This document shows positions 3,774 to 40,578 of a stretch of 50,584 bases of DNA, piece by piece (positions within the stretch are counted from its first letter, which is position 1; each line of letters starts with the position of its first letter). The notes under the pieces are model-generated. The model ran no database searches. It had not been told where the DNA came from and saw only the letters and a program-made list of their open reading frames with translations. Source of the DNA: an uncultured Porphyromonadaceae bacterium (GTDB taxonomy: Bacteria > Bacteroidota > Bacteroidia > Bacteroidales > Muribaculaceae); assembly GCA_947573485.1 (NCBI GenBank), contig CANPGB010000006.1:1-50584 (forward strand), written 5' to 3'. Both the position numbers and the translations under genes were made by a program.

Positions 3774-4037
3774 TTACGCTTCTGCCACGGGCAGCACGTT
3801 GATGAACTTGCGGCCGTTACGACCTTCGGAGAACTGCACGGTTCCGCTTACGAGAGCGTAGAGAGTGTGGTCCTTGCCGATGCCTACGTTGAGGCCGGGG
3901 TGGTGCTGGGTGCCGCGCTGACGCTTGATGATGTTGCCTGCCTTGGCGAACTGGCCGCCGAAGATTTTAACGCCGAGTCGTTTGCTTTCTGACTCACGGC
4001 CGTTCTTAGAACTACCGACGCCTTTTTTATGTGCCAT
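3774..4037 (-). CDS. rpmA: 50S ribosomal protein bL27
   Basis: An 87-residue protein with the canonical bL27 start [16 protein letters not shown], whose extended N-terminal tail reaches the peptidyl-transferase centre, and the conserved core [20 protein letters not shown]. There is no N-terminal extension needing cleavage of the Firmicutes kind. It lies 36 bases after rplU and is co-transcribed with it, the usual rplU-rpmA pair. Confidence 0.97.
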
Positions 4038-4073
4038 AGTGTGTTCTTGATTGTTAAGGGGTGAGACAGAAGA

Positions 4074-4394
4074 TTAAGCGAGGATGTCTTTGATGACAAC
4101 CTTGGTGAAGTACTGGCGGTGACCGTTTTTACGGCGATAGCCTTTACGACGCTTTTTCTTGAAAACTATTACTTTGTCGCCTTTTACGAGAGATTTTTCT
4201 ACCTCGCAAACAACTTTGGCTCCTTCTACAGTGGGAGCACCGACTTTAACGGTTCCGTCGAGGTCGGCAAGGAGGACGCGGTCAAATTCAACTTTGTCGC
4301 CTTCCTTTACATTTTCACCCAGGAAGTGAACGTAGAGAAAGTTGTCTTTCTCTGCCTTGAACTGCTGGCCCTGGATTTCTACGATAACGTACAT
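4074..4394 (-). CDS. rplU: 50S ribosomal protein bL21
   Basis: A 106-residue bL21: the N-terminal strand [17 protein letters not shown] and the basic C-terminal [17 protein letters not shown], which contacts 23S rRNA. It is the first gene of the rplU-rpmA operon and has a perfect Bacteroidetes promoter about 95 bases upstream. No Shine-Dalgarno is visible; the region before the ATG is A/T-rich (TTTTAATAA), as usual for the phylum. Confidence 0.97.
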
Positions 4395-4487
4395 TTATTA
4401 AAACTATTATTAGTTAACCCGCTGAGGCGGAGTATTTTGCATTGCAAGAAACTCTCTTTGAAATGCCTATTGCGGAAAATCAGCCCA

Positions 4488-4519
4488 CAAAAGTAGTGTT
4501 TTTTTGTGGTTTGTGCAAA
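4488..4519 (-). promoter_or_regulatory. Promoter of rplU-rpmA
   Basis: On the minus strand TTTG (4516-4519), an exact 20-nt spacer and TACTTTTG (4488-4495) give a full consensus match. The leader is about 90 nt, long enough to hold a regulatory structure, though I see none that is convincing. Confidence 0.8.
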
Positions 4520-4538
4520 TTTTTCTCAAATTTCTTGC

Positions 4539-4546
4539 TATTTTTG
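4539..4546 (+). promoter_or_regulatory. -7 element of the 4592-11056 gene cluster
   Basis: TATTTTTG matches TAnnTTTG on the plus strand, about 46 bases before the ATG at 4592. No TTTG stands at the expected N20 distance. The nearest (4510-4513) is 25 bases away, so the upstream element is uncertain. It is back to back with the rplU promoter. Confidence 0.45.
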
Positions 4547-4591
4547 CAGGCGGAATCGGGTCGGAATCCTCCGGCTCTTCTATATATAATA

Positions 4592-5008
4592 ATGAGTAAA
4601 CTTACAGAACTGATAGATATATTGCACGGCAGCGGCTGCTCGTGTGTAATTTGTAATCAAGGAAAGATTTTTGAATACCACGGGCGCGGGGTGGCTGACC
4701 TCTACCGGCTCCTTAAAGAAAACCCGGAGCGCCTCGCAGGGGCTCTTGTTGCCGACAAGGTGATTGGCCGTGGGGCTGCCGCCCTCATGGTGCTTGGTGG
4801 CGCTAAAGCTGTGTATGCCGATGTCATGAGCAAGCCTGCTCTCGCCATTCTGCAAGGCCGGATTAGTGAAGTGAGTGCCGGGCAGCTTGTAGATAATATT
4901 ATAAACCGTAGTGGCACAGGTATTTGCCCTGTAGAGGCGCTGACGGCTTCGTGCAAAACAGCCGAGGAGTGTCTGCCGCTCATCGAGAGTTTTATAGAAA
5001 GCCGATGA
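4592..5008 (+). CDS. DUF1893 (TM1506-like) protein
   Basis: A 138-residue cytosolic protein. The ATG at 4592 is preferred over the in-frame ATG at 4442, because residues before it are low in similarity and lie in the promoter. Recognisable family features are CVICNQGKIFEYHGRGVADLY, GALVADKVIGRGAAALMVLGG and the C-terminal NRSGTGICPVEAL. TM1506 has a cytidine-deaminase-like fold in known structures, but its substrate is unknown; Cys and Asp/Lys residues are conserved. It overlaps the next gene by four bases (ATGA), so the two are translated together. Confidence 0.75.
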   Translation: MSKLTELIDILHGSGCSCVICNQGKIFEYHGRGVADLYRLLKENPERLAGALVADKVIGRGAAALMVLGGAKAVYADVMSKPALAILQGRISEVSAGQLVDNIINRSGTGICPVEALTASCKTAEECLPLIESFIESR

Positions 5009-5766
5009 AGTGCCTGCTGCCTCTATTTTTACTATTTGCCGTGTATGGCTGCGGAGCCGACACTCAGAAACACGGTGTGAGCGAGCCTTTTGAAGTCGCA
5101 CTCAACGGCACAGGCGAGGCAAACTCCTACGCCATAAAGCCTGCCGATGCTCCCGATGCCGGATGCACCCGATTGAAAATCAACGGCATCGGAGGAACGC
5201 TCGGCAGAGTGTTCGCCGACCTCAACGCCGACCATCTTGCATATGCCGTGCCTCAGGGTATCAAGCCCGTGGAAGACCTCGCAAGCGCATGGCGCAACGG
5301 CTCAGGGCTTGTGCGCGTGGAGTCGGACTCGTGCATCTATATCGATTCTCTGACCCACTCTTATCCTTATCTCACCCATAGTGCCGCCGAGCTCTTGCAC
5401 GAAATCGGCAGGCGCTTCCGCGATACCCTGCAGGCGCGGGGTGGAGGAGACTACCGCATAAAGGTGACGAGCCTGTTGCGCACCAACAGCAGTGTTGCCA
5501 AACTCCGCCGCGTGAACCGTAACGCCACCGGTGAGAGCGCGCATGTATATGCCACTACATTCGACATCTCGCACAGCAAATTCATATGTGATAACCCGGC
5601 CGGAGTGCGCCGCACTTTCGAAGATCTCAAAAACCTCCTCGCCGAAGTTGTCAACGACCTCCGCAACGAAGGCCGCTGTCTCGTAAAACACGAGCGGCGT
5701 CAGGCCTGCCTCCACATCACGGCTATAGCTGAAGAAAAATCCGACGATGAAGAAACGCCTCAGTAA
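5005..5766 (+). CDS. DUF5715 lipoprotein, peptidase M15-like
   Basis: A 253-residue protein starting at the ATGA overlap. It has a lipoprotein signal (hydrophobic stretch, then VYGC with Cys16), so it is probably membrane-anchored. The C-terminal half carries VTSLLRTNSSVAKLRRVNRNA and then GESAHVYATTFDIS. The Ser-x-His spacing to Phe-Asp recalls the zinc-binding SxHxxGxAxD motif of M15 D-Ala-D-Ala peptidases, which DUF5715 resembles. A role in trimming peptidoglycan peptides is an inference. It overlaps the AsmA-like gene by 20 bases. Confidence 0.65.
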   Translation: MKCLLPLFLLFAVYGCGADTQKHGVSEPFEVALNGTGEANSYAIKPADAPDAGCTRLKINGIGGTLGRVFADLNADHLAYAVPQGIKPVEDLASAWRNGSGLVRVESDSCIYIDSLTHSYPYLTHSAAELLHEIGRRFRDTLQARGGGDYRIKVTSLLRTNSSVAKLRRVNRNATGESAHVYATTFDISHSKFICDNPAGVRRTFEDLKNLLAEVVNDLRNEGRCLVKHERRQACLHITAIAEEKSDDEETPQ

Positions 5767-8700
5767 AATATTATTTGTCACTTTCTGCACCCTGCTGGTG
5801 CCGGTGCTTTTAGTGATTGCCTCTCTCATTTGCACAGTGAAACTCCTGCATCCTGGCAGGCTGACGCCTCTTGTGCAGGAGCTTGCAAACAACACATTGC
5901 TGGCCAGGGTCGAAGTCAAGCATGTAGGCCTCTCCTTCGAGCCCGCCTTTCCTGTGCTCAAACTGCAGGTAGACTCGCTCATCGTAATTTCGAAAGTATT
6001 CGACGACCTGCCTGCGCAGGAGCGTGCGACTTTGCCTCAATGGACCGACACCCTGCTCACGCTCGACCGCCTCAAGGGCTCGGTCAACGTGGCTCAGCTG
6101 CTCAAAGGAAAGGTTGTAGTGCACGATGTTGAATTGATAAGACCCGGAGTCAACATTGTGCTCGACGCTAACGGACGCGGCAACTTTGCAATTTATCAAA
6201 GTGCCGACACAACCACTGCCGCGGCTCCCGACTCAGTATCCACACCTCTGGTCATACCACCCTGCACGGTAGATCATTTCGCTTTTGTAGACCCTCGCGA
6301 AATACGGTATTTCAGTGTTGCCGACAGCACCTCGGCCACGGTACTGCTGCTCCGCGATATGTCGCTCAACTCCGAGCACTCGGCTTATAGCCTGCAGATC
6401 GACGGTCACCTCAACAGCCCCGTAACCCAGGCACTTGTCAATCTCCGCGATATATCGTTCGGCCTCAACGGCCGTGTGCGCTGGGAACCCTCGAAGCCAA
6501 CTTTGCTGACTTTGGAGCAATTCCGCATGCGTGGCGCCTTCCTTGCGGCCACGGTCGACTTGGGAGTGGACCTTGACTCTACGCTCACAATAACCGCTGC
6601 GGCGCTGAAGCTTGACCCTGTTAAGGTCAGCGACATGCTCACGGTGCTCCCCGACAGTGTGCGGCGCGCCAACCGGCTTGTGGCACCCTACTTCGAGACT
6701 GATGCCGCCATAGCGCTTGAAGCGCGGCTCACAAAGCCTTTCTGCCCTGCGACCGACAGCATACCCTATGCTCAAGCCAATATCAGCATGGCCGACTGCG
6801 CGGTCAAATATGGCAAAGCGGTTTTCAAAAATGCAACGTTTGATATTGCGGCCTTTGCCCGTGGCAACGATATCGATTCCGCGTCAGTGGATATACGCAA
6901 ACTCTCCCTTTCGGGTCCGGCGACAACGGTTGATGTGTCGGGTACGGTTACAAACCTTATGTCCGACCCTGTTTTCGATGCCTTGGTTAAGTGCAACACC
7001 GACGTTTCAAGGCTCCCCGATATAGTGGCAAACCTCGCGCGCGGATATATCTCGGGTAGAATTGACCTCGACGTAAGAGCCGCCGGAGCGCTCTCTATGT
7101 TCAAGGAGGAGAATTTTCACCGTCTCGATATACGCGGGCGCCTTTCGGGCAACAAGCTCTACTACCTTTCCAATGATACTTCGAAAATGGTAGAGACCGG
7201 CAAACTTGCCGTGCGCTTCGGCTCCCAGATAAAGGCAGAGCCTGACTCTGCCATGGCTCCCGGCACACGTATGCTCGCCGCTTCAATTGCACTTGATACC
7301 ATTACTGCGCTTGCCGGAGGTGTGACAATCACGGCCTCCGACTTTACACTCGGTGCCGGGGTTGAAAATATGGTGCCGGGCGCCGACACCACGCTTGTGG
7401 TTCCCGTAGGCGGCCGACTTACCTTGGGGCGCTTTAATGTGGAGTCGGTCACCGACAGCGGCGGTATGCGTGCCCGCAATATCGACGGTCGTGTATCGCT
7501 TCGCCGCTTCCGTGGTGAGAGTCGGGTGCCCGAGCTTGCCGCTCATCTCGACATTGCCCGCATAGCGGCCGGTGTGAGCAACACGCGCTTCATACTTTCG
7601 CGCGCACACGTCGAGGCTTCGATGCACAAACTGCCTTCGAGGCGCCGTTTGCCCGAACAGCTGAAACGCACCGTCGACAGCATACGTCACGTACACCCCG
7701 ACCTCGCTCCCGACTCAGTGCTGCGCCTCGCCGTTGAGAAGCGCCGCGGTCATCACGGGAAGAAGAGAGTGACCACCACTCTTAATAATGAAGACCTCGA
7801 GGTGCTCGACTGGGAACTCTCGAACGGCTTCAAGAAATTCCTCCTCGGGTGGCAACTCGACGGTACTCTGAGCACACGCAGCGCACGGCTCTTTACCCCG
7901 ATGTTCCCCTTGCGCAACCGCGTGAGCCGGCTCGATCTCGCTTTTACCAACGACTCTGTTCAGCTCAACAACCTGCGCTATACAGCAGGCCGCTCCGACC
8001 TGCGCATCACCGGACGCATATCCAATATACGCCGCGCCCTCACCTCCAAGCGGGCCGGCAACTCGCTCAAGATAAACTTCGACATCAACAGCGATACCAT
8101 AGATGTCAACCAGCTTACCTCGGCAGTTTTTGCAGGAGCCGCTTACCGCAAGCGCCTCGAAGAGGGGCGGGTAGGGCACACCCTTGCTTTCGAGGGCTCG
8201 GAAGATGAGCTCGAACGCGAACTTGATGCCATTGCCACGGAGTCGCCTGATTCCGTTGGTCCGCTGCTGATCCCTGTCAATATCGACGGTCGTATGAGTC
8301 TGAAGGCAAATAATGTAATGTATGCCGACCTTGCCATGACAGGCCTCGACGGCGAGGTTCTGCTCTTCGACGGAGGTGTGAATCTGCATAATCTTGCGGC
8401 AAGCTCTGATGCCGGAGGTGTGAAACTCTCGGCTCTCTATTCGGCGCCCAAAGCCGATGACATGCACTTCGGATTCGGCCTCGACCTCGAGCGCATCAAC
8501 GTGGAGCGGTTCCTGCGCCTTGTTCCTGCGGTAGACTCCATGCTGCCTATAATGCGTGATTTCAGCGGTATTCTCGACGCCGAGATTGCCGCGACAGTCG
8601 ACATTGATTCGAGCATGAACCTCGTGCTTCCGAGCCTCGATGCGGCAGTTCGCCTTACCGCCGACTCGCTGGCCTTCATCAACCCCAAGACCTATGCGAC

Positions 8701-33883: not shown

Positions 33884-34732
33884 TCAGAGGGTTTCCGACA
33901 TATGCCGCAGCCATTCTATCTCCTGCGGCCAGAGCGAGGGGTCCGGTGTTTCGAGAATGAGAGGTATGTTGTCGAAGCGCGGGTCGGCCATGAGTTGCCT
34001 GAAAAAACTTTCGCCTACATAGCCTTTGCCAATGGGAGCGTGGCGGTCGATACGCGAGCCCGGCGGCCGCATGGCATCGTTGAGGTGCATGCCTCTGAGG
34101 TAGTTGAACCCGACGATGTCGGCGAAACTTTCCCACACTTTGGTGTAGCCCTCGGGAGTGCTGAGGTCGTAGCCCGCGGCGGTGGCATGGCAGGTGTCAA
34201 TGCAGACGCCCACACGGCTTTTGTCTTCAACACCATCGATGATAGCTGCCAGCTGCTCGAAAGAGTAACCGAGATTGCTGCCTTGGCCTGCCGTATTCTC
34301 TATCACGGCAGCGACGCCCTCGGTGCGCTCAAGCGCGTGGTTGATTGACTGCGCCACTATGGCAATGCTCTCGGCCTCACTTATCTGCCCGAGGTGTGAG
34401 CCCGGGTGGAAGTTGAGAAGCGCTATGCCAAGCTGACGGCAACGTTTGAGCTCGTCGACGAAAGTGCGGCGCGAAAGCCCTAACTTGCGGCCGTCGGGCG
34501 AGCCGAGGTTGACGGTGAAAGCTGAGTGTGGCAGAATCTGCAACGGACCGAACCCATAGGCGGCGCACAGTGCGCGGAAGCGCTCAACATCAGCCTCGTC
34601 ATAGGCCGGATAGTTGCGGCTCTTGGGGTCGATGAGGTTGAAGGCAAAGGCGTTGGCTCCGAGGCGGTGCGCCTCTTCGGGTGCATCGCCAACAAGAGGC
34701 AGTGAAGCCACGTGTGCGCCTATATACTTCAT
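33884..34732 (-). CDS. nfo: Endonuclease IV
   Basis: A 282-residue AP endonuclease that repairs abasic sites using three zinc ions. Ligands and motifs are in order: GAHVAS, LPHSAFTVNLGSP, NFHPGSH, IENTAGQGSNLG, VCIDTCHATAAGYD, MHLNDAMRPPGSRIDRHAPIGKG and LILETPDP. The length is exactly that expected. A promoter with TTTG and TAAATTTG lies 28 bases before the ATG. It is the last gene before the accessory block at 34.8-39.3 kb. Confidence 0.95.
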   Translation of the reverse strand: MKYIGAHVASLPLVGDAPEEAHRLGANAFAFNLIDPKSRNYPAYDEADVERFRALCAAYGFGPLQILPHSAFTVNLGSPDGRKLGLSRRTFVDELKRCRQLGIALLNFHPGSHLGQISEAESIAIVAQSINHALERTEGVAAVIENTAGQGSNLGYSFEQLAAIIDGVEDKSRVGVCIDTCHATAAGYDLSTPEGYTKVWESFADIVGFNYLRGMHLNDAMRPPGSRIDRHAPIGKGYVGESFFRQLMADPRFDNIPLILETPDPSLWPQEIEWLRHMSETL

Positions 34733-34759
34733 GCAGGGTATTTCAATCCAAATTTTTCA

Positions 34760-34789
34760 CAAATTTACAACAAAATCCCGATATGCAAA
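34760..34789 (-). promoter_or_regulatory. Promoter of nfo
   Basis: On the minus strand TTTG (34786-34789) is followed by an 18-nt spacer and TAAATTTG (34760-34767). The -7 box matches exactly; the spacer is two bases shorter than the common N20. The TTTG is part of the T-rich run that would complete the split terminator. Confidence 0.6.
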
Positions 34790-34798
34790 AATTAAAAA

Positions 34799-34813
34799 GC
34801 CGATGCAATTACT
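34799..34813 (+). repeat. Left copy of the 15-bp direct repeat flanking the accessory block
   Basis: GCCGATGCAATTACT here is repeated exactly at 39304-39318. Bases on both sides differ, so the shared length is 15. In the right copy the same sequence is one arm of a terminator hairpin. Here it stands alone next to a T-rich run on the minus strand. Confidence 0.9.
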
Positions 34814-35039
34814 GAGGGCACTGAAAATGAGAAGTCAACCATGTCTTTTATCTGCCGCAGAAGATTTTCCTGAGGTATAATCAGGTCGTATAAATTAGTG
34901 TAATCATTGAATTGAATGGTCTGTTGGCGAGGTAGTATATCTGTCGGATTTCTGTCATAAAGTTAACAAAAAAATCGGCACATATTCAAGCAACGGCTTG
35001 TCTATGTGCCGACTAATTTGGGTTGTATTGGTACCGGTT
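34814..35039. other. Gene-free end of the accessory block
   Basis: These 226 bases, with the nfo leader, form a gene-free gap of about 307 bases. It holds the left 15-bp repeat, the nfo promoter and the terminator at 34975-35012. A 25-codon frame from 34803 has no start signal or similarity and I do not call it a gene. No RNA gene or integrase remnant is visible. Confidence 0.6.
34975..35012 (-). terminator. Intrinsic terminator after the first Sel1-like gene
   Basis: TCGGCACATA (34975-34984) pairs with TATGTGCCGA (35003-35012), and AAGC/GCTT pairs inside. On the minus strand it is followed by a run of seven T. It ends the operon of the accessory block. Confidence 0.85.
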
Positions 35040-36215
35040 TTATCTTTGTGCCATATTGAGCATACTCTTGATTTCCGACTGAGTGATAGCAGCCGGTAGC
35101 AGCTCGGTAATCATTTCGGAATAACGGCCAAAGCTTGACCGTTCGCGTTCGATCTTAAATTTTAGTTTATGTTTAAGTTCGGATCTGTCCCAAGTCAATA
35201 TCTTTGTGGCATCGCGGTCAGAGAGCCATGTCACAGCAGCCTCGGAATCTTCCGAAAGCAGGCGGTCAAAGAATCTGATTGCATCATTTTCGCCCATCTT
35301 GCGGTACACCATATAGATTCTGGAAAGATTATGAGGGTACAGACCGCCGATGAGCTTGAGTTTTTCAACTTCTTTTTCGGCCTCTTCCTTTTTACCGTTC
35401 TGTGCAAGCCATAGAGCATTCACGAAGGTGGGAGCTCCTGCGGCGTCACGCATACTTTTAAAGTCGCCTTTTTGAATAATCGGAAAATATATTTTCCATT
35501 GACTGATAAATTCGTCGGAATACATTCCGCGGCGTGCATTATTGATAGTGCTTGGCTGCTGATTGTATATCAGTTTACTCTCCCAAAGCAGGCATGTATT
35601 AAGAATTTGTTCATAAGTGTCCGTGTTTCCGGTTCTTATAATATAATCCTTCACGATGCCCACATTTTCGTTGGAATTTGCGTCGCCGCCGAGTGCTATG
35701 TATCGGTTCATCCCGTTGACTGCGCATATCGGGTTATTAGTCGATACGCCCAGAATCATTGCTTTTTCAGCAGCCTCAACACTGCCCGAATCAGCAGCGA
35801 TATAAAGGAGCTTCTCGGCTGTCCTCAGATCTTTGTATTCTTCTTTCTCATTAAGAAAACCGGAGGCTGCTTCCAAGGCAAGGCGGGGATTGCCTTTCAA
35901 GCCGCCTTTCTCAGCCCATTGGCGCACCTTCTTCGCATTATTCTCTATACCGTCCCAGCTGCGGTAGAGGTCGGCCATGCGCTCGTAAGCCACGAGGTTG
36001 TCGTCTTTGTCAATGGCTTTTTTATACCATTTTTCGGCTTTTTTCAGGTCTTTGCCTGTGCCGTTGCCTTGTAGATAGGCATCGCCGACGGCAACCATGG
36101 CGCGGCTGTCGCCACCGTTGGCTTGCTTCTCGAGAGCCTTGGAATAGGCTTGGCCGTTGGCACTGATGCCAAGCCCTATGATGGCAACGAGAATTAGTAT
36201 GATTGATTTTTTCAT
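35040..36215 (-). CDS. Secreted Sel1-repeat protein, paralogue A
   Basis: A 391-residue protein with a signal peptide (about 1-21, ending SANGQ). Two Sel1/TPR-like repeats follow (GGDSRAMVAVGDAYLQGNG, then AYERMADLYRSWDGI) and one later (GNPRLALEAASGF). The remaining 250 residues are divergent and helical. The first 94 residues are almost identical to paralogue B (36277-37305), but the middle is unrelated at sight; both end in LNMA(Q/R)R. It is less G/C-rich than the neighbours. Sel1 repeats usually bind proteins; the partner is unknown. It is the last gene of the block. Confidence 0.8.
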   Translation of the reverse strand: MKKSIILILVAIIGLGISANGQAYSKALEKQANGGDSRAMVAVGDAYLQGNGTGKDLKKAEKWYKKAIDKDDNLVAYERMADLYRSWDGIENNAKKVRQWAEKGGLKGNPRLALEAASGFLNEKEEYKDLRTAEKLLYIAADSGSVEAAEKAMILGVSTNNPICAVNGMNRYIALGGDANSNENVGIVKDYIIRTGNTDTYEQILNTCLLWESKLIYNQQPSTINNARRGMYSDEFISQWKIYFPIIQKGDFKSMRDAAGAPTFVNALWLAQNGKKEEAEKEVEKLKLIGGLYPHNLSRIYMVYRKMGENDAIRFFDRLLSEDSEAAVTWLSDRDATKILTWDRSELKHKLKFKIERERSSFGRYSEMITELLPAAITQSEIKSMLNMAQR

Positions 36216-36256
36216 TGCAACGATAATTAATTATTTGAGCGCTTCGAGTGTTTTCT
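35941..36256 (-). repeat. Long direct repeat, copy A
   Basis: About 316 bases that match 37031-37346 with roughly twelve differences by eye (about 96% identical). It covers the first 90 or so codons of paralogue A, the intergenic bases and the relic end of an upstream gene. The two copies are 1090 bases apart. Confidence 0.9.
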
Positions 36257-36272
36257 GTTGGGCTTCGCCGGA
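36231..36272 (-). pseudogene. Relic 3' end of a gene like the 612-residue one
   Basis: Between paralogue A's start and paralogue B's stop, the minus strand encodes LSGEAQQKTLEALK and then a stop. The 612-residue protein ends EDQKKTLEALK and stop at the same distance from paralogue B. It overlaps no start codon and is out of frame with paralogue B, so it is a leftover of duplication rather than a gene. Confidence 0.75.
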
Positions 36273-36276
36273 TAGA

Positions 36277-37305
36277 TTATCGGCGAGCCATGTTGAGGAT
36301 TGTATTTATTTGCGCGGTGGTCAGATTCGGGGGAAGCATATTTGTAAGTTCCGGATCTTTCGCGCTATAGTCTTTGTGAGTCTTGAGGTAGCGGACTGCG
36401 TCCTTGTCGGTAAGCCACCTTTCGATTATCGCAGGGTCTTCGGCGAGCAGTTTGTCAAGAAAACGCATCGCTTCCGATTCTCCCATTGTCAGGTAGACAA
36501 GATAGACGCGGGAGAGGTTGTTGGGCCAATAACCACCGGTGACCAACATGTTTTCAGCTAAAAATTTAGCAGAGCTAATATCACCCTTTTGAGCCAGTTG
36601 TACTGCAAAAAAGTAATCGGTTGAGGGATCCGGAATGCCATTTTCCATCATGAAAGATAGGTCGCTTATACGCTCATATGGCAAGTTTCCGATGAAGGAT
36701 TGTATATCTTTGAACTTTGTGTCATATTCGATGTACTCAGGGTTCTGATCTCCGGCCAATTTTTTCAACTTGTCCAGAGCTTTGTTCGCTTGCCAGAGAT
36801 TATAATTCCCCTTAACCAATGAGATGTCCAAAGTCTTTTTTGCAGCATCGACATAGCCGGAGTCGGCGGCAAGATCCAAAAGATGAAAAATAAAGCCGTC
36901 TTTGCTTTTTGAGGAGTACCATTGGTAGTTCTCGTCATTGCTGTAATAGCCTTCGGCCACTTCCATGGCGAGGCGTGGATTGCCTTTATTTGCTCCTTTT
37001 TCAGCCCATTTTTTCACTTCGGAGGGCTTCTTCTCTATACCGTCCCAGCTGCGGTAGAGGTCGGCCATGCGCTCGTATGCCACAAGGTTGTCGTCTTTGT
37101 CAATGGCCTTTTTATACCATTTTTCGGCTTTTTTAAGGTCTTTGCCGGTGCCGTTGCCATGCAGATAGGCATCGCCGACGGCAACCATGGCGCGGCTGTC
37201 GCCACCGTTGGCCTGCTTCTCGAGAGCCTTGGAATAGGCTTGGCCGTTGGCACTGATGCCAAGCCCTATTATGGCTACGAGAATTAGTATGATTGATTTT
37301 TTCAT
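36277..37305 (-). CDS. Secreted Sel1-repeat protein, paralogue B
   Basis: A 342-residue protein. The signal peptide (1-21) and Sel1 part (up to about residue 95) are the same as in paralogue A except for a few residues (YLHGNGTG instead of YLQGNGTG). After this it differs: KKPSEVKKWAEKGANKGNPRLAMEVAEGYYSNDENY, then a tract without recognised domain. It starts 15 bases after the 612-residue gene. Probably secreted to the periplasm. It may have arisen by tandem duplication followed by replacement of the 3' part. Confidence 0.8.
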   Translation of the reverse strand: MKKSIILILVAIIGLGISANGQAYSKALEKQANGGDSRAMVAVGDAYLHGNGTGKDLKKAEKWYKKAIDKDDNLVAYERMADLYRSWDGIEKKPSEVKKWAEKGANKGNPRLAMEVAEGYYSNDENYQWYSSKSKDGFIFHLLDLAADSGYVDAAKKTLDISLVKGNYNLWQANKALDKLKKLAGDQNPEYIEYDTKFKDIQSFIGNLPYERISDLSFMMENGIPDPSTDYFFAVQLAQKGDISSAKFLAENMLVTGGYWPNNLSRVYLVYLTMGESEAMRFLDKLLAEDPAIIERWLTDKDAVRYLKTHKDYSAKDPELTNMLPPNLTTAQINTILNMARR

Positions 37306-37346
37306 TGCAACGATAATTAATTATTTAAGCGCTTCGAGAGTTTTCT
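37031..37346 (-). repeat. Long direct repeat, copy B
   Basis: The partner of 35941-36256. It covers the 5' part of paralogue B, the 15-base gap and the last codons of the 612-residue gene, with the gene boundary intact in this copy. Confidence 0.9.
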
Positions 37347-39159
37347 TCTGGTCTTCGATGAATTCTTTGTAGAGGTTTTCGCAGCGCATTTCGTCAATAG
37401 GATTATCGAAGTTGAAATTATATTTCAAGAATTTTTTGTAGCGCTTTTCGTAGTCTTTTACGATCTTCTTGCGGCGGCTGTCGTCTTTGTTGGCCATAAT
37501 CTGATCGTTTAAGAACTCGACATCCTGTTTGCGGTAGACGATGCGTGATGCGTCTTTGGCCGATGCCTTATAGGCTTCTGTGTCGAAACGCCCCTTGCGG
37601 TCGATAGTCATCGTTCCGTTGATGTGCTGGTTGTCCTTGATATATTCTATTTTACAGGTGCCTTCTTTGAGGTCGATCAGCGAAATCTCATACACCGGAT
37701 TTTCGCCGAAAATTTCGGGATTGACAGCTATGGCGCGTTTGGCGTCGGAGATGAAATTGTCGTAGACGGCTTGCACGCCGAATGTGCGGCGGTAGGCTGT
37801 TGAGCTTTTCAGACCGTCGAGGTCGCAATAGATTAATTGGTAGGGGTTCTTCTCGTCGGGTTTGGTGGTGGTAAGATAGACGGGCTTGTCGAGAATCTCA
37901 ACCAGCATCTCGTTACTCTTCATATAGATAGGCTTGATGACGAAGGGATTCAAGGCATCGGCGGCCTCCTTGCCGTAGTCGTTGAATTCCTGGCGGGCTT
38001 CTCTCGCTTCATCATTAGCGTTTTTGAAGTCGGTGCGTATCTGCTGCTCGTGTTGGCGGCGGTCGGCTTCGGTCTCATAGTGCTGCTCCACGTCACTTTT
38101 AGCGAGTCCTTCCTCATGGCTTCCGGTGCCTGCGCCCGTAGGTGTGATCATAATCGTCCCGTCGGCATTTTTAGTCCATTTGAAGTTGCGCTTTCCGATA
38201 GGTCGCATCCACACGGGATAGCCGCCGGAAAGACTGCGCGCGCCTTTCATACGGCCGGTATAGGAGTTACGCTGGCCGCCGATACCCTTGCCTTTGACGA
38301 GCTGCAGAGTCCATGTTTTGGTGCCGCCGTAGATTGTGATTGTGCCTGTCCCTGCGGGGTTGAACGTGATGTTCAGCTTTTGTCCGCCTAAGGCATTGAG
38401 TCCCCAGAACGAGCCTGCGGGTTTTGTCACGGCATTTTTCTTCCAGTCGGCTTCGGAATGAAGGAGATAGTCGGCGCGTGTTCCGTCTGGTTGGACGATA
38501 GTGCCCGACAGCGCCTCTACGCGTGTTTGCGGATGCCATTTGGACTTTTCGTTGTCGGTAATGGTGCTTATCTTGTCGTATCCGCAGGTAATCAGGCCGT
38601 AATAGCGTCCGGCATTGTCAGGCAGGTCGGCTATCACATAGTAGACACTGGGCGATTCATAGACCATGTAGGTTATCGTTCGTCCGCTCTTGTCGGTCTC
38701 GCGGCGCATCAGAGGGTCGCCCAGGGCGTTGGTGACAGGACGGGCGCTTCGAATGGCCTGTGCGTGGCGCAGCTGCCATGTCTGGCCGTCTATGGTCAAG
38801 GGCTTGGGTGCGTCGAGGCGCAGGAGGGTGTCCACATAGTCGGTGCGGTCGTCGATGGCAAGGTCGGCGCTGCCGAAAATATGGCTTTGGCCGTATTTTT
38901 TGATTTCGTTAAGCACGATGTCGCGAGAATCCCCTTGAGATAACTGGATTTTAGCTTGAAGCTGCACACGTTGCGGCATTCGCGCCATTCCGTCAGTGAT
39001 TGCTTTTTGGCTTTCTTTAGATTCAGATTGTAAGATATTGTTGAAATTGGCATCCAGCTTTTCGTAGAGGGATTGCGAATAGGCTGTCGGCGTCAACAGG
39101 GCTAAGCCAACAAACAGGCCAACGCCCGCAAGGAGACGAGTTTTGAAAGTGTTGAACAT
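37321..39159 (-). CDS. 612-residue secreted protein of unknown family
   Basis: A signal peptide (about 1-28, ending TAYSQ) is followed by a 580-residue protein without a domain I recognise. The middle has beta-rich stretches (GTGTITIYGGTKTWTLQL and NITFNPAGTG). A charged coiled-coil-like stretch lies near residues 366-398 (HEQQIRTDFKNANDEAREARQ). The C-terminus is basic and helical (RRKKIVKDYEKRYKKFLKYN). It heads the accessory block and is likely co-transcribed with the Sel1 genes. It is probably periplasmic or on the surface. The region before its start (39160-39303) shows no clear promoter. Confidence 0.65.
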   Translation of the reverse strand: MFNTFKTRLLAGVGLFVGLALLTPTAYSQSLYEKLDANFNNILQSESKESQKAITDGMARMPQRVQLQAKIQLSQGDSRDIVLNEIKKYGQSHIFGSADLAIDDRTDYVDTLLRLDAPKPLTIDGQTWQLRHAQAIRSARPVTNALGDPLMRRETDKSGRTITYMVYESPSVYYVIADLPDNAGRYYGLITCGYDKISTITDNEKSKWHPQTRVEALSGTIVQPDGTRADYLLHSEADWKKNAVTKPAGSFWGLNALGGQKLNITFNPAGTGTITIYGGTKTWTLQLVKGKGIGGQRNSYTGRMKGARSLSGGYPVWMRPIGKRNFKWTKNADGTIMITPTGAGTGSHEEGLAKSDVEQHYETEADRRQHEQQIRTDFKNANDEAREARQEFNDYGKEAADALNPFVIKPIYMKSNEMLVEILDKPVYLTTTKPDEKNPYQLIYCDLDGLKSSTAYRRTFGVQAVYDNFISDAKRAIAVNPEIFGENPVYEISLIDLKEGTCKIEYIKDNQHINGTMTIDRKGRFDTEAYKASAKDASRIVYRKQDVEFLNDQIMANKDDSRRKKIVKDYEKRYKKFLKYNFNFDNPIDEMRCENLYKEFIEDQKKTLEALK

Positions 39160-39301
39160 ATTATAAGTTGATAATGATTGCTTTGTGCAGTAAAAGTTCT
39201 TCGTCTGCAGATTCTTTTATGATGGTAACATCATGGTCTATAGACTCTCCGGATTGGGGCTACCGGTTTATAAAAAGAAGGCGTGAAAGACTGAAACATT
39301 T

Positions 39302-39329
39302 AGGCCGATGCAATTACTTGCATCGGCCT
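39302..39329 (-). terminator. Hairpin after the TPR gene (right side of the split terminator)
   Basis: AGGCCGATGCAA (39302-39313) pairs perfectly with TTGCATCGGCCT (39318-39329), with loop TTAC. On the minus strand the stem is followed by AAATGTTTCAG, a poor T-run. The matching T-rich run lies at the left end of the accessory block beside the left 15-bp repeat. Confidence 0.7.
39304..39318 (+). repeat. Right copy of the 15-bp direct repeat flanking the accessory block
   Basis: An exact copy of 34799-34813. It forms the left arm and loop of the hairpin after the TPR gene. The block between the two copies is 4490 bases long. Confidence 0.9.
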
Positions 39330-39348: not shown

Positions 39349-40578
39349 TCAAAGAGTCATGCGTTTGCGCACGTCGTTGAGCATGTTTTCGTCGTTGAGC
39401 TGGTAGTAGACGCTCTCGAGTAGACGGAGGATGTCGGAGTTGTCGGCATCGAGAGTGTAGGCACCTTCGAGCACCTGAGCGGCCTCTTTGAGCACGGGGG
39501 TAACCTTCTCGGCGAAGTAGGCGTCGTATTCAGCCTGGTTGTTGGGTGCTTTGTCGAGGAGGTCGTAAGCCTCGGCACCGAGCATACGGCCGTAGTAGTA
39601 GGCTGCCTGGGCGTTCTTGGCGTCGAGACGCACGGCGTTCTCATAAGAGTCTTTGGCCTTGGCTTTGTCGTCGGTATTTTCGTAGAGCACGCCCTGCACG
39701 ATGTAGTACTGTGCGTTGTTGGGGTTCTGGGCGATAGCATCGTTGATGATTCCGAAAGCTTTGTCGTAGTCCTTGGCCTGGAGGTAGTAGTTCACCACTT
39801 CCGACATGTAGGCGGGTTCTTCCTGACCGTAGAGAGGAATTGCTTCCTGGGCGATGGCGAGCACAGTGTCGTTGGCATTGATCATCTTGGCTACGGAGAT
39901 AGAGTAATCGTAGAGCTTTTTATTGTTGTAGCCGAGGTCTTTTGCGCGGAGGAACGAAGAGAGCGACTTATTGAGGTCTTCGGCGTTCCATGCTGCGAGA
40001 GCCTGGTTGTATGCTACGAGAGCGAGGGTTGAGTCAGCCGGCATGGTGCCGTTGCTCTTGAGAATCTTGGCCATTTCGGGGTTCGAGGGGAGGTCAAGAT
40101 ATATTTCCCAGGTGTCACAGGCAGCTTTGAAGTCTCCCATATTGTAAAGTTCGCCGCCGAAGTTGATGTAGTCGTTGTAGTGGCCGGCGATGGTGTTGTA
40201 TATGTCCTTCGACTTTTTGGGCTTGATCTTACCCTTTGCGTCGGGCACAGAGTCGAGGGGGAGAGCCTTGCTGAAATAGTCGTAACCCTGGAGGAGGAGT
40301 TCGCCCATGGTCTTCTGGCCACCCTCGGGGAGCTTGTTGAACTGGAGCAGACCGAGCATGTGGTCGTACTCTGCGTAGGCAGCCTTACCGGGGATATACC
40401 AGGTGTTTACCTGCCCGGCGGTTTCGGGGTTTGTGAAAGCAGGAGTGAGAATCTCGATAATCTTCGAGGTCTTCTCGTTGTTCTTCATGGCACGCTCTGC
40501 TTCTTTTACCAGCGATTCCTGTGCGGTGGCACCGATGCAGGAGGCTACGGCGAGAGCCAGTAGACAGAATTTCTTCAT
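39349..40578 (-). CDS. Secreted TPR protein downstream of gyrA
   Basis: A 409-residue protein with a signal peptide (1-19, ending TAQ) and about seven TPR units (ALPLDS, AWNAEDLNKSLSSFLRAKDLG, YYLQAKDYDKAFGIINDAI, GVLYENTDDKAKAKDSYENAV, AAYYYGRMLGAEAYDLLD). TPRs bind other proteins; a role in assembling envelope complexes is an inference. A TPR gene after gyrA is a common Bacteroidales arrangement. It lies 33 bases after gyrA and ends before the split terminator. Confidence 0.85.
   Translation of the reverse strand: MKKFCLLALAVASCIGATAQESLVKEAERAMKNNEKTSKIIEILTPAFTNPETAGQVNTWYIPGKAAYAEYDHMLGLLQFNKLPEGGQKTMGELLLQGYDYFSKALPLDSVPDAKGKIKPKKSKDIYNTIAGHYNDYINFGGELYNMGDFKAACDTWEIYLDLPSNPEMAKILKSNGTMPADSTLALVAYNQALAAWNAEDLNKSLSSFLRAKDLGYNNKKLYDYSISVAKMINANDTVLAIAQEAIPLYGQEEPAYMSEVVNYYLQAKDYDKAFGIINDAIAQNPNNAQYYIVQGVLYENTDDKAKAKDSYENAVRLDAKNAQAAYYYGRMLGAEAYDLLDKAPNNQAEYDAYFAEKVTPVLKEAAQVLEGAYTLDADNSDILRLLESVYYQLNDENMLNDVRKRMTL

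Follow-up and report, generated by a model that had tools for sequence, protein, structure and literature searches.

The 50,584-nucleotide stretch analysed here (contig CANPGB010000006.1 of assembly GCA_947573485.1, from an uncultured Muribaculaceae bacterium; hereafter the window) harbors a block of about 4.5 kb between a TPR gene and nfo, and comparison with related genomes gives good support to the conclusion that this block was gained at that site. We favor, with moderate confidence, the view that it is an acquired accessory unit which split a junction of terminator and promoter, with duplication of 15 bp, and which is probably expressed by read-through. The block encodes three main polypeptides, all on the minus strand: big (37321..39159, 612 amino acids, an exported protein without curated family) and the two exported Sel1-repeat proteins selB (36277..37305, 342 amino acids) and selA (35040..36215, 391 amino acids). 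Along the minus strand the order is gyrA, the TPR gene, a hairpin, big, selB, selA, a hairpin with T7, the left copy of a 15-bp repeat, a T-rich stretch and nfo. An initial annotation of the window had judged the block A/T-richer by eye; its G+C content is indeed 48.2%, against 55.3% in the remaining window, and among 185 segments of 4.49 kb each the one with the lowest G+C content starts at 34751.

The block is framed by an unstranded direct repeat, GCCGATGCAATTACT, of which the left copy lies at 34799..34813 and the right copy at 39304..39318. The match is exact and the bases outside both copies differ, as the initial annotation had stated. Within the 2.88-Mb genome, exact copies are confined to these two forward positions, with none in reverse orientation and none of the reversed control; the search for further copies that had been proposed thus returned the two borders and not a common motif. 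Aligned locally, the intergenic regions on the two sides of the block scored 15, while the best of 500 shuffled pairs reached 14.5, and an exact 15-mer common to shuffled flanks was obtained in 2 of 20,000 trials.

The right copy forms part of the hairpin that is now present 3′ of the TPR gene (39302..39329, minus strand, located with a hairpin scorer and by folding), which is followed by a poor T-run (5 T in 12 bases). When the outer flanks of the block are joined, the minus strand reads as a ten-pair stem GCCGATGCAA/TTGCATCGGC with loop GTAA, followed by TTTTTAATTTTTG; the 12 bases after this hairpin contain 10 T. The arm with its poor T-run and the joined hairpin with its T-rich tail had both been described earlier, and the counts agree with that description. 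The left copy would represent one arm and the loop of the split terminator, and the putative T-tract of this terminator is found in the left outer flank, in a T-rich stretch (34760..34798, minus strand) that also holds the nfo promoter, TTTG-18-TAAATTTG. This promoter, detected by a scan with the consensus given in PMC7366714, resembles the TTTG-19-TACTTTTG promoter of the related genome G028. On this reading of the sequence, the −33 box of nfo would have lain within the T-tract of the old terminator, and it is this junction that the block would occupy. Here we depart from the initial annotation, which regarded the terminator as common to the gyrA-TPR and nfo sides. Because nfo is co-directional and downstream, the terminator served gyrA-TPR, with the nfo promoter overlapping it, and not two converging sides.

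Behind selA the block carries a terminator of its own, a strong hairpin with T7 (34968..35012, minus strand; −29.9 kcal/mol in an 80-base fold), as had been claimed, although the list from a simple terminator scan contains neither this structure nor the right-hand hairpin. In total, the simple scan listed 9 sites resembling terminators (6.9 expected) and 10 resembling promoters (5.8 expected). The roughly 150 bases from the T7 hairpin to the left 15-mer contain no listed open reading frame (ORF) of 90 amino acids.

Support for a gain comes from the TPR-nfo region of relatives. The TPR gene, the upstream neighbor of the block (39349..40578, minus strand, Pfam TPR families), was matched in 54 of 61 genomes, own included. 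Downstream of the block lies nfo (33884..34732, minus strand, Pfam AP_endonuc_2), which is within reach of the TPR gene in 2 of 29 relatives' loci, those of G028 and G017, and in neither is there a block in between. Longer stretches, taken for 20 of the 29, again placed nfo near the TPR gene just in these two; some relatives' TPR stretches stop at contig ends. No genome other than the own one was seen with the block at TPR-nfo. G028 shares 95% identity with the own genome in gyrA and 70% in the TPR gene, and its TPR-nfo gap contains one uninterrupted hairpin bordered by runs of A and of T. The TPR hairpin of G017 is a different one with few T.

The own genome contains three copies of big, each followed by a Sel1-type gene: one in this block, one on contig C9 and one on contig C19. 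The block, which had been put forward as a candidate accessory unit, can therefore be described more broadly as one of three related units. The C9 unit lies between genes which we take to be guaA and rplY, upstream of guaA, and the C19 unit between what are presumably a spoT-like gene and recQ, upstream of the spoT-like gene. G+C contents are 49.7% in the C9 unit against 56.1% around it, and 48.7% against 57.5% for C19. Among 12 relatives searched, G028 alone shows both neighbors of these sites in the fetched stretch; there the neighbors are adjacent at the C9 site as well as at the C19 site, with no unit, and G028 is thus without all three. On either side of the C19 unit lies a near-repeat of 35 bp with 30 identical positions (0 of 500 shuffles scored as high), which contains the promoter of the downstream, spoT-like gene; its 13-bp core is present exactly three times genome-wide, twice at C19. 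Perfect TAnnTTTG boxes precede both the C9 and the C19 unit.

The history that we propose is as follows. A unit of big and an exported Sel1 partner would have entered at the junction of the gyrA-TPR terminator with the nfo promoter, and the entry would have duplicated 15 bp, comprising the loop of the hairpin and its first arm. To the left of the block, the nfo promoter and the T-tract would have been kept, and to the right the TPR hairpin, with the unit's own terminator now insulating nfo; the block grew by an internal duplication of 398 bp, giving selA and selB. Entry probably occurred via short-homology or break-repair recombination and not by a transposase of the unit itself, and transcription is probably by read-through from gyrA-TPR. 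Read-through is plausible because few T follow the TPR hairpin and because the 189 bases between the TPR gene and big contain no TAnnTTTG box with at most one mismatch.

Several observations weigh against this history. Immediately upstream of big there is a sigma-70-like match (TGCACA-TATAAT, 39160..39189), and the lack of a TAnnTTTG box in as few as 189 bases is not a rare chance outcome. The loss of the T-tract is not compelling either, because the best TPR hairpins of relatives, evaluated with the same scorer, have at least 7 T in 19 of 29 cases and at most 6 T in 10 of 29, the latter group including G028 (4 T, as the scorer takes its T-run to be part of the stem) and G017 (3 T). The joined hairpin was seen in neither the G028 nor the G017 locus, and the arms of the G028 terminator are unlike those of the own joined hairpin. 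At the related units, the other half of the C19 repeat resembles a promoter motif found before another gene, and the C9 flanks share a dispersed palindrome with 11 genome matches at no more than one mismatch. Framing repeats are, finally, not unique in the own genome, since direct repeats scoring at least 15 occur in 6 of 165 pairs of intergenic regions lying 2–6 kb apart (about 487 kb sampled), the pair of the block included; 4 of these 6 score above 31, and inverted repeats reach 15 in 2 of the 165 pairs. The earlier proposal of an insertion with a 15-bp duplication thus holds in part. The gain is borne out by the block-free loci of G028 and G017, and the first also provides the empty site with an uninterrupted terminator. 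The joined hairpin itself, which that proposal predicted at an empty site, was not seen in relatives and the G028 arms differ, and for this reason the duplication of 15 bp at entry is something we infer; it would be the simplest reading of the block borders.

The gain and the repeat may also be unconnected, the 15-mer being either fortuitous or a hairpin arm that was copied later. A repeat of 15 bp is short, and the frequency of comparable pairs together with the unseen joined hairpin speaks for this explanation; for that frequency, pure chance is retained as a rival, even though the shuffles make it improbable for the two flanks alone. The restriction of the 15-mer to the borders, its rarity in shuffled flanks and the better terminator obtained on joining (10 T instead of 5 T) argue in the other direction, and we regard a fortuitous repeat as unlikely. 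A history of homologous exchange with a strain already carrying the block at TPR-nfo, in which the 15-bp repeat is older and stems from the donor lineage, has the merit that flanking genes suffice and that no enzyme of the block is needed, in keeping with the three proteins, in which none was seen. It merely shifts the first insertion elsewhere, though, and the block at this site is in no other genome seen, with big itself being rare in genus and family (see below); such an exchange seems to us a rather poor candidate.

Comparison with mobile elements gives no match to a known class. The three proteins of the block match no transposase or integrase family in Pfam or NCBIfam, in line with the earlier remark that the block lacks an integrase. 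A direct repeat at the borders and an empty site in relatives are features shared with insertion sequences and transposons, but the latter encode transposases. As to inverted repeats, comparison of one intergenic flank of the block with the other gave an inverted score of 12.5, below the top direct shuffle score of 14.5. A target duplication of constant length is not seen: the repeat is 15 bp here and 35 bp (30 identical) at C19, and at C9 it is the dispersed palindrome. Integrative elements with attL and attR sites at terminators or gene ends resemble the block in the short border repeat and in the target hairpin kept on one side, whereas the three proteins match no integrase of tyrosine recombinase type and the three units share no core. 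No known mobile class fits, because no transposase or integrase was matched and the framing repeats differ. That the block is a decayed integrative element with the 15-mers as attL and attR and the integrase lost is suggested by the exact border repeat, the terminator target and the intact site that deletion between the repeats would leave, but we consider it very improbable: the three proteins match no integrase family, the frames differ in sequence and length between the related units, and searches of viral contigs, plasmids and phages gave no relative of big.

The favored history, an acquired unit that split the gyrA-TPR terminator, has a bolder extension, namely that a secreted two-gene unit repeatedly enters terminator/promoter junctions with target duplications of variable length and machinery acting in trans, and that the present copy lives on gyrA-TPR read-through via a terminator it has itself weakened; this we see as a long shot. 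If the favored history is true, the block would be a clear case of an accessory unit without mobility genes settling in a bacterial chromosome. Such a unit would split an overlapping terminator and promoter, spare the promoter of its neighbor, bring its own terminator and possibly be expressed through the one it weakened. The block would also draw attention to a rare exported pair, big and its Sel1 partner, for which as a pair no curated family was matched.

The initial annotation left open whether the block entered or grew inside the terminator, and growth within it is evident. selA and selB arose by an internal duplication: they share a 398-bp direct repeat that runs from the last codons of big into the Sel1 genes, with one copy at the big/selB junction (36960..37357, minus strand) and the other at selA (35870..36267, minus strand). 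The second copy opens with a remnant of the final big codons (recognized by eye in the alignment). This stub is located between selB and selA, an arrangement expected after a duplication. Between selA and selB, identical residues number 90 of 95 in columns 1–95, 30 of 59 in columns 96–200 and 62 of 178 beyond. For the Sel1 partners of C9 and C19 the same column ranges give 83 of 92, 70 of 100 and 95 of 246.

Signal-peptide-like segments, seen by eye, open all three main ORFs, in agreement with the earlier description of the block as encoding secreted proteins. The Sel1 repeat (PF08238) was detected in selA with 34.2 and in selB with 39.5 bits (cut-off 30.7), and the structure model of selB matches solved Sel1 structures, including LceB (8sxq) and HcpC (1ouv). 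Compared with these Sel1-repeat proteins, selA and selB have one detectable repeat each, and their N-terminal columns are near-constant between neighbors, unlike the columns beyond 200. For big, no curated family was matched in Pfam or NCBIfam, no PDB entry by sequence up to E 1 and no structure by Foldseek at E 0.001 or better. Its model, built from 5 sequences, has a mean predicted local distance difference test (pLDDT) score of 73.3, and its Z score against lipocalin- or avidin-like barrels (4qrl from Bacteroides uniformis), a fold considered for the middle domain, is at a level that unrelated models also reach. Most likely, although we hold this weakly, big and its Sel1 partner cooperate in the periplasm or at the surface, where the modelled solenoid may hold the putative barrel protein or its ligand. 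A role of the Sel1 proteins as immunity proteins was considered since 5jkp, named as an immunity protein, is among the structure matches of selB; it was not adopted because big matched none of the toxin families.

Outside the own genome, relatives of big are rare. The protein was found in 2 of 49 genomes of the genus (own, plus G011 with a weak fragment), in 3 of 397 genomes of the family, drawn from a larger group (own, G011 and G200), and in 2 of 393 genomes of the order (own, plus G579 with a match over about 130 positions). Of two scans of genome_contigs, the first gave no relative and the second a single record, which agrees with the G200 contig in length and contig number. In G200 the pair occurs in opposite order, with the Sel1 gene first and then big, and on both sides stands a repeat, roughly 117 bp long and with 95% identity, the right copy of which stops at the contig end. 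Parts of this repeat match two other G200 contigs and a 65-bp part matches G227; the framing repeat may be dispersed, because parts of it match other contigs of G200. A search with the repeat and the fragment peptide upstream of rlmN gave nothing beyond 20-base matches in the loci of 9 relatives. The case for G200 as a further clean insertion is weakened by the matches elsewhere and by the empty rlmN search. Among the titles and abstract openings listed in literature searches, no description of a big-Sel1 unit was found, which is no proof of absence.

Some further observations concern the related units. In G200, a gene end and terminator stand on both sides of the Sel1-big pair (L126 2302–2480 and 5939–6054). 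In G579, which belongs to another family, an exported protein of 359 amino acids (L152 1036–2115) shares just a middle part of big, and the next ORF encodes a very acidic polypeptide of 206 amino acids. At the starts of big on C9 (L087 10507–10557) and C19 (L088 10333–10464) there is no in-frame ATG before the signal peptides, and by eye ATGTT[A/G]TTACCCCC is found just upstream, out of frame; translation may begin at a codon other than ATG, or slippage may occur at the C run. The palindrome GCAAATTTATTTGCC has about 11 matches in the own genome (e.g. at 7228–7242 of the C9 stretch L087); it is dispersed and occurs twice, as close pairs, on contigs C3, C23 and C45. The repeat at C9 was dropped as a target duplication, since its core has 11 matches with at most one mismatch genome-wide. 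Two more framed blocks were noticed in the own genome (G000). On contig C10, at about 3925–7436 (L146), a block with an ATPase-like gene and others has a direct-repeat frame of about 55 bp (score 31.5) and is possibly another accessory block. On contig C7, at 95600–98989 (L140), small exported or membrane proteins are enclosed by a hairpin-rich direct-repeat frame of about 100 bp (score 94), and a repeat that by eye is similar lies beside the C9 unit.

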